Assembly (NCBI GenBank): GCA_028287235.1
Contig: JAQBQB010000010.1
Location: forward strand, 372,001 to 436,000
DNA from: Gemmatimonadota bacterium
GTDB taxonomy: Bacteria; Gemmatimonadota; Gemmatimonadetes; Gemmatimonadales; Gemmatimonadaceae
DNA length: 64,000 nucleotides
Direction of reading: 5' to 3'
Shown: positions 17,861-44,669 of the stretch, piece after piece
Layout: each line of letters opens with the position of its first letter
Numbering within the stretch: position 1 is the first letter of the stretch
The notes under the pieces: generated by a model
Seen by the model: only the letters and a program-made list of their open reading frames with translations
Told to the model about the DNA's origin: nothing
Database searches by the model: none
Program-made: the position numbers and the translations under genes

Positions 17861-18471
<611 letters not shown>

Positions 18472-18475
<4 letters not shown>

Positions 18476-19686
18476 AAGGTCTTCAGATATTCGACGAGGT
18501 CGTGTTTTTGTTGCGACGACAGACGGAGCGACAGCGCGCCGTCGTAGTGATCGACGACGGCGGCCAGCGTCGCGGCGCTGCCGTCATGGAAGTACGGCGC
18601 ATGCTGCAACAACCCGCGCAACGGCGTGGTACGATACGCCTTGTCAGCGGTGCGCGCGGCGTAGCGCGGGTCCATGCCCGTCTCCGACGGCGCGTGCAGC
18701 CTGTTGAAATTCACGTCGGTGTAGGTGGTGCCGAGGTGGCACGACGCGCAGTTCGCCGCGCCGTTGAACAGCGCGCGCCCGCGCGCCTCCGCCGCGTCGT
18801 CGACCGTTCCCGCCGGCGGCTTCGGTGTGCCAAGGCTCAACTGGTACTGCCTCAGCGCCGTGAGCTTGGGCGTGACCAGATCGGGCGTCTGCAGGACGTT
18901 TACGCCGATGCGCGGATCGCTGAAGCTTCCCTGCCCGTGCATCTGCGTGACGGCAACGTACGCGTTCCAGTAGGAAATCGATCCCTCGGCGGTGTAGGTG
19001 ACCTTGTCCACGCCGGCGAGCCCGTACGCCGGCGGCAGCACGAGCGGCGTGCTCAGTCCGTCGAGGTTGATGCGGGGGTCGTACTTTCCTGGCCCCCAGC
19101 TGTTGAGGATCGTCTTGAGCGCCGGCGACACCGCCGGCGACAGCGCGACGATCGCGCCGGCATTCATGTCCATGTTCGGCCACCCGTCGAGGCGATGGCC
19201 AATGCCCTTCGCGAACGAGTTGTCGACGGTGGAGTGACAGAGCGCGCAGGTGATGCCGACGCGCGCCAGCGTATCGCGTCCGTTGATCGTTCGCACATCG
19301 CCTTTCAGCCCGACCACGGCATTGAGCTTGAGCAGCGTCACCGTGGTCGCGGGGCTCGCGAGATCCACCGTGCCGGCGGCGATCGCATCGCGCACCGCCC
19401 GCGGAACCGAATCGACGTCGACCTTGAAGCCCACCGAGAGCGCCGCCGCGGGACTCACCGCGCTTTGGATGACCTCGTGCATTCGGAGGGTGTCCGTCCA
19501 ATACTTCTCGTCGCCAAACGTGTCGAAGCGGAAGATGTCCTTTCCCGCGCTGACGAGCGCCGGATCGAGCTGCTCGGGCTTCGGTTGCGTCGGAACGCCG
19601 CTGCCGCAGGAGATCGCGAGACCTCCGGCGGCAGCTGCTCCGACGAGGGCGAACGCGCTACCAAACTTCCGTAGCGGGCGGCGCAC
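18472..19686 (-). CDS. Di-haem cytochrome c peroxidase-like lipoprotein
   Basis: A 404-residue exported protein with two c-type haem motifs, CALCH at 147-151 and CASCH near 315. The N-terminal hydrophobic segment ends in AISC27, a possible lipobox. The second half ([46 protein letters not shown]) matches the MauG/CcpA cytochrome c peroxidase family; the first half is less typical. It probably reduces peroxide or oxidises a substrate in the periplasm. A GTG at 19686 is the start, one base after the DUF4142 stop, and its own stop overlaps folE, so three genes form an operon. Confidence 0.88.
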
Positions 19687-19687
19687 G

Positions 19688-20227
19688 TCAGCTTCCGAGC
19701 TTCGTCTCGAGATTCTGCGCGGCGAGCATGTGCGCCTGGAACGCCGGCGCCACTTTGACGACGAGCGCCTTCACGTCGGCGTTCTGAATCGCCGGCAGCA
19801 GCGTGGTCGTCACCGCGTCGATGACCGCTTTGTGAAACGCGACTTCGTGCTGCAGGAAGGCCTTGTCGAACGCCTTGCCGTCGAGACCGCGCAACTGCGT
19901 CATCGCGGCGGCATGGTCGCGCGCGCCCTGGTCGGGCTTCGGTGCAGTCGGCGTGACGCCGAGCTTCTTCGCCAGATCGCGGCCCTGTTGACGGACGGCC
20001 TTGTGGTCGCGGGCGAGCATCGCGCCAAAGTCGCGGACCTCCTTGGTCGTGCCCTTCTTGGCGGCGAGCTCGCCGGTCTCGATGTCGGCGGTGTTCGCGG
20101 CGTCGAAGATCGCGACGATGGTGGGGTCGTCGAGCGCGGGCGCGGTGCGAGCGCTCGCCTTGGGGACGAATGCGACGGTCGAGATGCTGGCGACCGCAAG
20201 AGCGGCGGCGACGATGGCTTTGCGCAT
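19688..20227 (-). CDS. DUF4142 secreted protein
   Basis: A 179-residue protein with a signal peptide (residues 1-26, cleavage after ASA), then a four-helix ferritin-like bundle of the DUF4142 family: TIVAIFDAANTADIETGELAAKKG, VRDFGAMLARDHKAV, AFLQHEVAFHKAVIDAV. ATG at 20227 has GGAGG six bases upstream. It leads the operon with the di-haem peroxidase and folE and is divergent from the SufR-like gene with a shared control region. The family is often stress-linked but has no firm biochemical role. A second DUF4142 gene lies at 43959-44669. Confidence 0.9.
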   Translation of the reverse strand: MRKAIVAAALAVASISTVAFVPKASARTAPALDDPTIVAIFDAANTADIETGELAAKKGTTKEVRDFGAMLARDHKAVRQQGRDLAKKLGVTPTAPKPDQGARDHAAAMTQLRGLDGKAFDKAFLQHEVAFHKAVIDAVTTTLLPAIQNADVKALVVKVAPAFQAHMLAAQNLETKLGS

Positions 20228-20295
20228 GGAAATTCCTCCAAACGGTGAGTACGGATCCTGTTGTGGTGGTAAGAGATGGGATATTAAGACACAAA

Positions 20296-20347
20296 TGTCA
20301 AGTATTTATTGTGCTTATTTGACAATCGGTCCTCCCGGGCGCATTTT
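20296..20347. promoter_or_regulatory. Divergent control region: palindromic operator and sigma70-like boxes
   Basis: TGTCAAGTA (20296-20304) and TATTTGACA (20316-20324) are inverted repeats matching at 8 of 9 positions, in an AT-rich island unlike the surroundings. Each half contains TTGACA pointing outward. To the right, TTGACA (20319-20324) is followed after 17 bases by CATTTT (20342-20347), placing the start of transcription at about the ATG at 20356. The left-facing -10 is not convincing. Confidence 0.6.
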
Positions 20348-20355
20348 TCGGACAT

Positions 20356-21006
20356 ATGAGCATCGCCTCGCTCGGCGCGCGCTTCCTGGACAGCACCCGC
20401 GGGCAGATGGTTTCCCTGCTCCGCCGCGGCGCGCGCACCGTCGAGGATCTCGCCGGTGCCCTGGGGCTGACCAACAACGCCATCCGCAACCATCTCGCGA
20501 CGCTCGAGCGCGACGGCATCGTGCGGCAGGAGGGAGTCCGGCGCGGACCGGGCGCCGGGAAGCCCGCCGTCGTCTACGAGCTGCACCCCGATGCCGAGCC
20601 GCTCTTCTCGAACGCCTACGCGCCGGTGTTGCGCACCCTCGTCGATGTGCTCGTGGCCGAGCTTCCGCGCGAGCAGGCCGACGCCGTCATGATGCGCGTG
20701 GGACACCAGCTGGCGGCCGGCGCGGGCGGACGCGCGCCGGGCGATCTTGCGGCACGCGTAAAGGCTGCCGCCGCGGTACTGACTTCACTCGGCGGCGACG
20801 TCGAGATCATCGAGGACGAGGGCATGCTTCGCATTCGCGGGTGCGCGTGCCCGCTCGCGGCGACCGTGGCCGACCACCACGAAGTCTGTCGCGCCGTCGA
20901 GACGCTCGTGGGCGACGTGGTCGGGGAGCCCGTGCGGTTGCAGTGCGAGTACGGCGCGAGACCGTGCTGCTGCTTCGCGATCGAGCCGGCGACGTCAGGG
21001 CTGTAG
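20356..21006 (+). CDS. SufR-like winged-helix regulator with cysteine cluster
   Basis: A 216-residue regulator. The N-terminal winged helix (residues 15-75, ARTVEDLAGALGLTNNAIRNHLATLERDGIV) is followed by GPGAGKPAVVYEL and a C-terminal sensor with cysteines at 163, 165, 178, 197, 204, 205 and 206 (GCACPLA, HHEVC, LQCEYGARPCCCF). This is the layout of SufR and related iron-sulfur-cluster sensing repressors. There is no Shine-Dalgarno, and the promoter suggests a leaderless mRNA. No suf genes are in the window; the divergent peroxidase/DUF4142/folE operon and its own gene are the likely targets. Confidence 0.84.
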   Translation: MSIASLGARFLDSTRGQMVSLLRRGARTVEDLAGALGLTNNAIRNHLATLERDGIVRQEGVRRGPGAGKPAVVYELHPDAEPLFSNAYAPVLRTLVDVLVAELPREQADAVMMRVGHQLAAGAGGRAPGDLAARVKAAAAVLTSLGGDVEIIEDEGMLRIRGCACPLAATVADHHEVCRAVETLVGDVVGEPVRLQCEYGARPCCCFAIEPATSGL

Positions 21007-21819
21007 CGACACCGAGACCATCGCTCCACCGCGGCCATCGGGCACGACGGACGTGCCGAGCAGCACGCGATCGAGCTTCGTGCGCTTGTGGCTGTGCGCA
21101 TAGCTCACGACGCGCGAGCCGATCAGCGTGCCGACGAACGCGCCGGCGACGACGTCGCTCGCCCAGTGCTGATTGAGATACATGCGCGTGAGGCCTGGGA
21201 CGGCGGCCGCCGTGTACAACAGCGGCGCGGCGTACCAGCTCGCACTGGGGTTGCGCTCGTGAATCTCACCCACGAGTGCCGCCGCGGCGGCGAACGCGGT
21301 GGCCGAGTGCAGCGATGGGAACGCACGGTTGTCGAAGTGCGTGAAGCCCTTTCCGAAATCGAATTTGTACTGGTCGTTGGGGCTGATGCTCGGACGCTCG
21401 CGGCCGAGCGGGCCGCGGATGATCTGGCTGATCGCGCTCGTCAGCAGCAGCGACTCGGTCGTGTGCGCCGCGACGTCGGCAATCGTTTCGGAATGCGTCA
21501 GGCGTCCGACGCCGTAGCTGAGAATGGCCGCGGCGGTCAGCGTGGTCTCGTTGACGTGCGTGACCTTGTTGGCGAGGTCGTGGCGTGACGTTCCGCCCTG
21601 CACGTTCGACGTCTGCGTGTAGTGCGCGATGCGTTTGTCGAAGATCGACACCACGCCGGTGCCCGCGAGCGCGACGGCCGTGTACGCGAGATCGCGCCGG
21701 GTAAAGAAGGTCTTGGTGGTGTCCTTGTGGGCCTGCTGCGCGGCCAGTGAGGCCGGCGCGGTGCCGCCGGCCGAAAGAATGAGAAGACCGAGAAACGTGA
21801 GTCGACGGTTCATTGCCAT
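20995..21819 (-). CDS. PAP2-family phosphatase (membrane/secreted)
   Basis: A PAP2 phosphatase of about 274 residues with an N-terminal signal segment (LTFLGLLILSAGGTAPASLAAQ). The three phosphatase motifs are present: RGPLGRERP, FPSLHSATAF (PSLH in place of the common PSGH) and TRMYLNQHWASDVVAG with the catalytic His and Asp. It should cleave lipid or diphosphate phosphate esters on the outer side of the membrane. Start uncertain: ATG 21819, ATG 21813 or GTG 21840. Its 3' end overlaps the end of the regulator gene by 12 bases in convergent orientation. A related PAP2 gene is divergent at 21977. Confidence 0.85.
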   Translation of the reverse strand: MAMNRRLTFLGLLILSAGGTAPASLAAQQAHKDTTKTFFTRRDLAYTAVALAGTGVVSIFDKRIAHYTQTSNVQGGTSRHDLANKVTHVNETTLTAAAILSYGVGRLTHSETIADVAAHTTESLLLTSAISQIIRGPLGRERPSISPNDQYKFDFGKGFTHFDNRAFPSLHSATAFAAAAALVGEIHERNPSASWYAAPLLYTAAAVPGLTRMYLNQHWASDVVAGAFVGTLIGSRVVSYAHSHKRTKLDRVLLGTSVVPDGRGGAMVSVSLQP

Positions 21820-21976
21820 GATCTGTTCGAGAGTGGTCACGATGTTGAGCCGTCCGTAGCGGGAAACGTACCGGTGGATGGCGCAGCGCCGACCAAAGCA
21901 AGAAGCGAGCGAGCTCCGCTGTTCGTCGCGCCCGCTTTGTCAGGTTGGCGTCATCTGCTCCGGCTATGTTGTCCCG

Positions 21977-22855
21977 ATGCGACAGGTCAAACGCTTCAGC
22001 AGACTCTCACGCAACGCGATCCGCGCGCTGTGTCATTCCTCGGCGCTGCTGCTCGCCGCGACGTACGCGGCACGAGCGCAAACGCCGGAGCGCCCGAGGA
22101 TGTCGCCCGCCGATTCGGCGTACGCGGCACGACCTTTGTTCGGCGTGCGCGACGCGGTGATCGCCGCCAGCTTCGTGGGCGGAACGATCATCCTCTTTCC
22201 ATTCGACAAGCGAATGGCGCACTATCTCGAGGACGAGGAGACCCAGGCCAACAAGTTCTTCGGCAAAGCGGCGACGGGGTTCGAGGTCATTGCCAGCCCG
22301 GGCGCCTACATCATTGGCGGGGGCATGTACATCATCGGCCGCGTCGGCAACTACGGCCGGCTGCAGGATCTCGGATTGCACGGCACCGAGGCGGTGCTCG
22401 TCGGCGATGCGGTCGCTGGGTTGATCAAGGGACTGGCCGGCCGCGCGCGGCCGTACGTGAGCCTCGACACGAACCCGCGCGACTTCAAGTTCGGGCACGG
22501 ATTCACGACGACCGACAGGCAGTCATTTCCGTCGGGACATACGACCACGGCGTTCGCCGCCGCGGCCGCGGTGACCTCCGAAACCGGGCGGTGGTGGCCC
22601 GGCTCGACGAAGTACATCGGACCGTTGATGTACGGCGGCGCGACGATGGTCGGACTCTCGCGCATGTACCACAACAAGCATTGGGCGAGCGACGTGGCGC
22701 TCGGCGCCGCGATCGGCACCTTCGCCGGTCAGAAAGTGGCGCAGTACAACCACTCGCATCCCGACAACTGGATCGACCGGATGCTCCTGCACGTGTCGCT
22801 GGCGCCAAATGGGAATGGTGGCGCGGCGGTTGGGTATTCGATGGGGTTGCCGTAA
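21977..22855 (+). CDS. PAP2-family phosphatase
   Basis: A 292-residue paralogue of the preceding PAP2 protein, divergently oriented. A signal peptide (residues about 1-30, ending near ARAQ) precedes the phosphatase region with KGLAGRARPYV, FPSGHTTTAFA and SRMYHNKHWASDVALG. This copy keeps the canonical PSGH. Longer in-frame extension upstream to 21878 gives no signal sequence, so ATG 21977 is preferred. The pair probably arose by duplication; they share LDRVLLG/IDRMLLH and C-terminal VPDGRGGAMV/APNGNGGAAV blocks, which suggests both end in an outer-membrane-like strand. Confidence 0.86.
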   Translation: MRQVKRFSRLSRNAIRALCHSSALLLAATYAARAQTPERPRMSPADSAYAARPLFGVRDAVIAASFVGGTIILFPFDKRMAHYLEDEETQANKFFGKAATGFEVIASPGAYIIGGGMYIIGRVGNYGRLQDLGLHGTEAVLVGDAVAGLIKGLAGRARPYVSLDTNPRDFKFGHGFTTTDRQSFPSGHTTTAFAAAAAVTSETGRWWPGSTKYIGPLMYGGATMVGLSRMYHNKHWASDVALGAAIGTFAGQKVAQYNHSHPDNWIDRMLLHVSLAPNGNGGAAVGYSMGLP

Positions 22856-43958: not shown

Positions 43959-44669
43959 ATGAAGAACGGAAAAATCCAATGGCTCGCCGTGGGACTGACG
44001 GCGGCCTTCGCGGGGTGCGCGCGCAACCACCCAAGCCCAACCATCTCGACCGCGACGATGACTACGACGACCACGAGCACGGCGGCTGGCGACGTGGGGT
44101 CGATGAGCGACGCGAGCGGCATGTGGATCGATAGCGTCGGTGGCACGTGGGTCGACTCGTCGGGTATCGTGCGGCTGGGCGGGCCGGGCGGAATGACCGT
44201 GGGACTCCGGCCCGTCGACGTGGCACAGATGACCAACTCGAACATCATCGCGCACCTCGCCATCGGCGATACGCTCGAGGTCCTTCTCTCACGACTGGGC
44301 GTGGACCGCGCACAGAACATGGCGGTGCGGGAGTTCGCGCAGCGGATGGTGGACGCGCACTCGGCGCACCTGCACGGCATCATTCAGAACGCGGTACAGA
44401 ACGGCATCTCGCCGATGCTGGCGCCGAGCGACACCGCGGACATCGCGACGACGCGCCGCGCGATCGACGCGCTCACGAAGGCGCCCGCGGGACCCGATTT
44501 CGACCGGCAGCTCATGCGCGCCGAAGTCGCAGTGCACGAGCACATGCTGCACGACCTGAACTTGATGCGGTCGCAGGCAGCGGGCACTGCACAGCAGATC
44601 GTCGATCAGACGATTCCCGTGGTGCAGCAGCATCTCAGCGACGCACGAAACATCCTGCAGCAGTTGTGA
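43959..44669 (+). CDS. DUF4142 lipoprotein
   Basis: A 236-residue exported protein. The signal ends in AFAGC (lipobox), followed by a Thr/Ser-rich linker (residues 25-60) and a DUF4142 ferritin-like helical domain (NIIAHLAIGDTLEVLLSRLGVDRAQNMAVREFAQRMVDAHSAHLHG, RAEVAVHEHMLHDLNLM). ATG 43959 has GGAGGGG eight bases upstream; the longer frame starting 43932 lacks this. It is a paralogue of the protein at 19688-20227. Placement beside katE suggests a stress role. Confidence 0.87.
   Translation: MKNGKIQWLAVGLTAAFAGCARNHPSPTISTATMTTTTTSTAAGDVGSMSDASGMWIDSVGGTWVDSSGIVRLGGPGGMTVGLRPVDVAQMTNSNIIAHLAIGDTLEVLLSRLGVDRAQNMAVREFAQRMVDAHSAHLHGIIQNAVQNGISPMLAPSDTADIATTRRAIDALTKAPAGPDFDRQLMRAEVAVHEHMLHDLNLMRSQAAGTAQQIVDQTIPVVQQHLSDARNILQQL

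Follow-up and report, generated by a model that had tools for sequence, protein, structure and literature searches.

A clade of SufR paralogues in Gemmatimonadota with a predicted operator shared with divergent DUF4142 and peroxidase genes

SufR is described as the switch of the suf genes for iron-sulfur assembly. In cyanobacteria, SufR carrying a [4Fe-4S]2+ cluster binds the sequence CAAC-N6-GTTG and represses both sufBCDS and its own gene, and its ligands are given as C164, C171 and C206 in a 2026 review (PMC13421787). The Mtb protein requires C203, C216 and C244, a spacing of 0/13/41, but not C242, according to PMC6034842. The locus considered here lies in a 64,000-nucleotide stretch of a Gemmatimonadota contig (the window) and encodes a regulator that shares features with these proteins, but has a different genomic context. 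Comparative evidence gives good support to its placement in a clade of SufR paralogues distinct from the suf-linked SufR of the same phylum, and it appears that in these soil bacteria a sister of SufR has taken on another role, at a DNA site that differs slightly from that of SufR.

The regulator, its clade and its cysteines

The regulator gene (20356..21006, forward strand) starts with ATG and encodes a protein of 216 residues with a winged-helix N-terminus and a C-terminal cysteine domain. The N-terminus scores 35.6 bits against the Pfam model HTH_5 of the ArsR/SmtB type (cut-off 22) and likewise exceeds the cut-off of HTH_20, showing the winged helix-turn-helix expected of a SufR-type protein. 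The NCBIfam equivalog model for SufR (TIGR02702) weighs against such an assignment, as the regulator reaches 34.6 bits, far under the cut-off of 178.8; the suf-linked paralogue shown for comparison, at 115 bits, is likewise under it. The metalloregulator model NF033788 (HTH_metalloreg) gives 36.1 bits, under its cut-off of 55 bits, and does not place the protein among the ArsR/SmtB metalloregulators. A structure model built from the single sequence (pLDDT 64.9) is too poor for judging a cysteine cluster. The regulator is single-copy in a search of its genome, in which no further SufR-type protein was found at E 0.001. Its nearest named relative, L031 on a Gemmatimonadaceae contig (70% over residues 1-91), is likewise preceded by a TGTCAAG...TTTGACA site and has a DUF4142 gene upstream in opposite orientation. 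On the other side of the regulator gene, a PAP2 phosphatase gene (20995-21840, reverse strand) runs towards it and shares 12 bases with its end; this PAP2 gene is divergent from a second, related one (21878-22855, forward strand).

The first search covered 59 related genomes, of which 48 contain relatives, and 40 stretches were fetched. The discovery set comprises 28 informative loci of the close group, the window included, and the held-out set consists of 40 further members chosen by the authors among the results of a search across 395 genomes of the phylum; matches at 1e-25 are present in 165 of these genomes, with suf-linked paralogues counted in. L039 was left out of the counts because its contig begins at the gene, and L063 was left out of the suf-linked group as it has no suf neighbours. 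L032 (Burkholderiaceae) was rejected: the match is short and lies inside an unrelated reading frame, and its genome holds no relative.

A maximum-likelihood tree separates the 68 proteins of the regulator clade from 11 suf-linked proteins by a branch with support of 99/99. The two groups nevertheless align end to end with hhalign (probability 99.9, E 3e-32). In the suf-linked group (L061, L062, L064-L072) the regulator gene is followed by SufB/SufD-type genes, the Pfam check covering two clusters with one representative each. A clade member and a suf-linked paralogue are both present in five of the fetched genomes. The window's own genome carries sufB/sufD-type genes at L130 (G000:C30:9000-19000) with no SufR seen upstream. 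Since, in addition, no suf-linked paralogue was found in this genome, suf regulation is probably different here.

The reading made from the sequence alone had emphasised seven C-terminal cysteines with a CCC triplet. All of these are encoded (positions 163, 165, 178, 197, 204, 205 and 206, with 204-206 forming the triplet), but the conserved set is limited to four. C165, C178, C197 and C205 are invariant among the clade members (68/68) in a cysteine census, whereas C163 is found in 6/68, C204 in 2/68 and C206 in 24/68, and the triplet is private to the window protein. With three of the seven not conserved, the idea that all seven cysteines make up a ligand set of their own was dropped. The suf-linked paralogues have cysteine at the positions of C165, C178 and C205 in 11/11 sequences, but at C197 in 0/11. 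The regulator thus has three C-terminal cysteines at the places expected of SufR ligands, with a spacing of 0/13/40. Because of their conservation in both groups and the near-identical spacing in Mtb SufR, the three ligands of SufR seem to have been retained; C197, the fourth cysteine of the conserved set, is specific to the clade.

Divergent neighbours and the predicted shared operator

Upstream of the regulator, three genes are encoded on the reverse strand. The nearest (19688..20227) encodes a DUF4142 protein (PF13628, 3e-31), followed by a di-haem cytochrome c peroxidase or MauG-like protein with two CxxCH motifs (18472..19686; NF040606 at 6.9e-14, under the cut-off) and by folE for GTP cyclohydrolase I (17861..18475; TIGR00063 at 249.8 bits, over the cut-off), which shares 4 bases with the peroxidase gene. 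The peroxidase haem motifs are CALCH at 147 and CASCH at 313, and two CxxCH motifs are found in 17/19 aligned peroxidase sequences, the other two being short pieces. In an alignment of 60 DUF4142 sequences from these loci, H75, D121, E128, H132 and H166 are invariant; they may form a ferritin-like metal site, and the signal sequence can be read as that of a secreted protein. In the papers found to mention DUF4142, the name does not occur in titles or abstracts.

Neighbours were counted by tblastn, as the reading-frame calls missed DUF4142 at some loci. DUF4142 and/or the peroxidase is divergent from the regulator at 65/68 loci, DUF4142 itself at 60/68. In the discovery set, the divergent upstream position is taken by DUF4142 at 24 of the 28 loci and by a di-haem peroxidase-like gene at the remaining 4. 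The held-out set shows a divergent DUF4142 gene at 36 of its 40 loci and a peroxidase at one more (L190), the exceptions being L171, with folE and a Rieske reductase, L195, whose upstream DUF4142 gene points the same way as the regulator gene, and L205, with no partner gene. None of the three genes was found around the suf-linked regulators (0/11 loci) within the fetched stretches. The divergent DUF4142/di-haem peroxidase/folE operon proposed earlier is supported, with folE as an occasional partner: a strong match (<1e-80) occurs at 4/68 loci (the window, L034, L036 and L171), and the window's genome has a second folE elsewhere. Other redox genes, for Rieske/FAD reductases or cupredoxins, are present at some loci. 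A further DUF4142 match lies within the window at 44235-44654 (forward strand, E 4.7e-18), and the whole genome contains seven such matches, with the operator described below (at most 1 mismatch) occurring only at the regulator.

The intergenic region between the regulator and the DUF4142 operon contains a perfect repeat, TGTCAA-N17-TTGACA, at 20296-20324 (0 mismatches). This confirms the earlier report of an inverted repeat shared with the divergent operon and containing the -35 box, its right arm being the TTGACA at 20319..20324 (forward strand), the presumed -35 of the regulator gene. The left half-site, TGTCAA at 20296..20301 (reverse strand), reads TTGACA on the complement and is the presumed -35 of the DUF4142 operon. 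As first drawn, the repeat comprises only the outer arms of a larger operator, a conserved 36-bp region at 20292..20327 (forward strand), that also contains a middle half-site. The full site, present at 61 loci, consists of a left part TGTCAA or AGTCAA (59/61), 8 nt, a middle part and a right part, which is TTGACA, TAGACA or TGGACA in many of the 61 loci. The middle half-site is TTGAC in 28/61 and otherwise takes other forms, often of a TGT type; in the window it is a weak variant, TGTGC at 20310..20314 (forward strand), which counts against the repressor reading proposed below.

TGTCAA-N17-TTGACA is unique in the 5.7-Mb genome at up to 1 mismatch, with 0 matches for a reversed-pattern control. 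With up to 2 mismatches, the window contains 2 matches where 0.70 would be expected, which leaves the loose pattern by itself without significance there. As a finder of regulon members in relatives it was abandoned, since its hits at 1 mismatch resemble those of the reversed control, and the long pattern was therefore used only for uniqueness in the window's genome. Further evidence comes from a weight matrix trained on 22/27 discovery loci with the window excluded. The window operator scores 29.3 bits, whereas 100 dinucleotide-shuffled versions of its stretch reach at most 1.6, and 39/40 held-out loci score above all 100 shuffles, including L205 at 2.7 bits. With a presence line of 14 bits, applied after the shuffle test and leaving L205 below it, the operator is found in 61/68 loci. 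No operator is recognisable at the other seven (L041, L042, L045, L047, L056, L195 and L205), of which all except L205 form one subclade; these seven, too, count against the repressor reading. The peroxidase gene adjoins the regulator in four of these six subclade members, and the upstream regions of L042 and L056 both carry TTCCAGATAAA, perhaps a re-specified site.

The ideal core of the clade operator, CAAG-N6-CTTG, occurs exactly in 12/68 clade loci and in 0/11 suf-linked ones. The reverse is seen for AAC-N6-GTTGA, found in 0/68 clade loci but in 7/11 suf-linked upstream regions. The cyanobacterial sequence CAAC-N6-GTTG itself is present exactly in 3/11 suf-linked loci and in 0/68 of the clade, which accordingly lacks the SufR operator proper. 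The seven suf-linked regulators preceded by AAC-N6-GTTGA, a sequence near the cyanobacterial operator, are L061, L062, L064, L065, L066, L069 and L071. Judged from their sequences, the clade and SufR operators share a common layout with different specificity. In the putative recognition helix, the N40 position is occupied by aspartate in 50/61 members with a site and in 1/7 without, an association (uncorrected p 7e-4) that is confounded by relatedness, the window protein itself having N.

To look for copies of the operator away from the regulator, 59 genomes were scanned with the short palindrome, allowing up to 2 mismatches. Matches lie at clade regulator genes in 12 genomes and at 8 sites elsewhere. 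Three of these 8 precede a partner missing from the regulator locus, namely a peroxidase in G002, a peroxidase-folE pair in G001 and DUF4142 in G047, so that in these genomes the regulon keeps its operator where its genes have moved. Leaving out G000:C7, the four others are without a partner gene; a yield of 3/8 counts against the preferred reading. The hits G002:C127, G005:C41, G003:C39 and G044:C65 were dropped as targets, having no partner genes nearby. The G044 site precedes a gene that reads like P-II.

Promoters and the proposed mode of repression

The regulator promoter consists of TTGACA at 20319-20324, 17 nt, a presumed -10 box CATTTT (20342..20347, forward strand) and 8 nt before the ATG at 20356. 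Of the TTGACA-17-CATTTT promoter proposed earlier, the -10 box is conserved in position, while its sequence is weak and the promoter is missing from a simple sigma-70 scan. The -10 of the DUF4142 operon, CATCTC, is weak as well, and the weakness on both sides speaks against the repressor reading. Downstream of the right half-site, TAnnnT is found at exactly 17 nt in 23/61 loci, with 8 further loci having it at 16 nt and 2 at 18 nt. The middle half-site gives a minor peak, also at 17 nt, of 7 loci, and no other position beyond it exceeds 3. On the opposite strand, TAnnnT is located 17 nt from the left half-site in 19/61 loci, with 3 further loci at 16 nt, 4 at 18 nt and at most 1 for each other spacing from 9 to 43. 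Because of these peaks 17 nt off on each side, the outer half-sites can be assigned as the -35 elements of both divergent promoters, so that binding of a dimer would block both.

With ordinary promoter spacing, a -10 box that ends 8 nt before the ATG would place the transcription start 0-3 nt upstream of the ATG. A leaderless regulator transcript is thus plausible in the window, with uncertainty stemming from the weak -10 box. The lack of a Shine-Dalgarno sequence pointed out earlier is borne out, as the longest complement before the regulator ATG is 3 nt (DUF4142 has GGAGGA), but it is a common feature in the window, where 19/49 called genes are without a match of at least 4 nt. In the near relatives L033 and L034, 26-27 nt separate the -10 box and the start codon, so the short gap in the window would have arisen independently. 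L043, L052, L191 and L194 (with TAnnnT) and L057, all of one subclade that is likely leaderless, have gaps of 5-6 nt.

Taken together, the clade, its conserved cysteines, the synteny, the operator overlapping both -35 positions and the mobile regulon make it fairly probable that the regulator is a SufR-paralogue repressor with a [4Fe-4S] cluster, acting on its own gene and on DUF4142-peroxidase-folE through this operator and relieved by loss of the cluster. Most likely, each monomer would hold one [4Fe-4S] cluster on C165, C178 and C205, the SufR positions, and on the clade-specific C197. The cluster-loaded dimer would bind the operator and switch off both its own promoter and the divergent operon, and both would be freed when the cluster is lost or damaged by oxidant, NO or iron shortage. 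The derepressed cell would then produce the di-haem peroxidase in its periplasm, a secreted metal protein of ferritin-like type and additional FolE. These targets point to peroxide or metal stress as the most likely signal.

An unlikely reading, though one deserving consideration, retains the regulon but takes the four cysteines as a zinc site or a thiol/disulfide switch instead of Fe-S ligands. The ArsR/SmtB-type score of the N-terminal domain and the disulfides that CCC and CC pairs could form agree with it; against this, three of the four cysteines align with invariant positions of the suf-linked proteins at a spacing near that of Mtb SufR, and the extra cysteines are not conserved. The Fe-S repressor reading also has to be compared with activation of the divergent operon from sites placed for polymerase contact, which the weak -10 boxes of the window would suit. 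Overlap with the -35 box is the usual position of a repressor. As the half-sites overlap both -35 boxes, activation is quite improbable, and both characterised SufR proteins are repressors.

That the regulator is the organism's plain SufR, acting on suf genes at another place in its genome, would fit with the failure to find another SufR-type protein in the genome at E 0.001 or one beside the suf genes. This reading is nonetheless very improbable, given that no second operator copy (at most 1 mismatch) exists genome-wide, suf included, that five fetched genomes hold both types of regulator, and that the clades differ in an operator base and in the fourth cysteine; action on suf in this genome was dropped, there being no operator there. 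Linkage to suf or its control, as in SufR, was also not found at the locus, its neighbours being DUF4142 and the peroxidase and the sole operator copy lying away from suf. Slighter still is the chance that the inverted repeat is merely a pair of divergent TTGACA -35 boxes and not an operator of this regulator. Both arms do sit at -35 positions, and the outer arms alone are also what two such boxes would give, but conservation exceeds the hexamers (an AAT flank, the G after TCAA and the middle half-site), the arrangement accompanies relocated peroxidase and DUF4142 genes, and the motif is absent in the subclade with a changed recognition helix, an association confounded by relatedness.

Significance and comparison with known systems

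The earlier proposal of a SufR-related regulator sharing its operator with a divergent redox operon has strong comparative support, and the regulon is absent from the literature searched; no literature was found for SufR-like regulators or for the combination of a Gemmatimonas regulator, Fe-S and peroxidase. A second SufR-type clade across the phylum, whose operator is recognisably changed and whose regulon is not that of SufR, offers a case from nature of the way in which a repressor that senses a cluster may acquire a new job and stay apart from its parent. It also provides a regulatory handle on DUF4142, a widespread uncharacterised family, and makes specific predictions: an operator, four ligands and three target genes. 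A broader picture can be offered tentatively and with considerable doubt, in which a phylum-wide Fe-S sensor that arose as a SufR duplicate, insulated by a change from CAAC to CAAG per half-site and a relocated fourth cysteine, would run periplasmic peroxide and metal defence centred on a DUF4142 protein of ferritin-like type; in this lineage and some others the sensor would be made from a leaderless transcript with an operator-set start.

Among described systems, cyanobacterial SufR (Synechocystis sll0088) resembles the regulator in repressing itself and the adjoining operon, in its cysteine-bound [4Fe-4S] cluster (predicted for the regulator) and in an inverted repeat with a 6-nt centre (PMC13421787). 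It differs in its CAAC-N6-GTTG site and its sufBCDS targets, the clade having CAAG-N6-CTTG, a comparison made from the published description. The Mtb SufR (Rv1460) is likewise an Fe-S-bound repressor with three needed cysteines at 0/13/41, close to the 0/13/40 seen here (PMC6034842), but regulates the suf operon that contains it; the comparison is one of published positions. The suf-linked paralogues of the same phylum share full-length homology and the same three cysteines, but lie beside sufBCD-type genes, have AAC-N6-GTTGA in 7/11 cases and are without C197. Finally, the ArsR/SmtB metalloregulators have the HTH_5 N-terminus in common with the regulator, which differs from them by its extra C-terminal cysteine domain.
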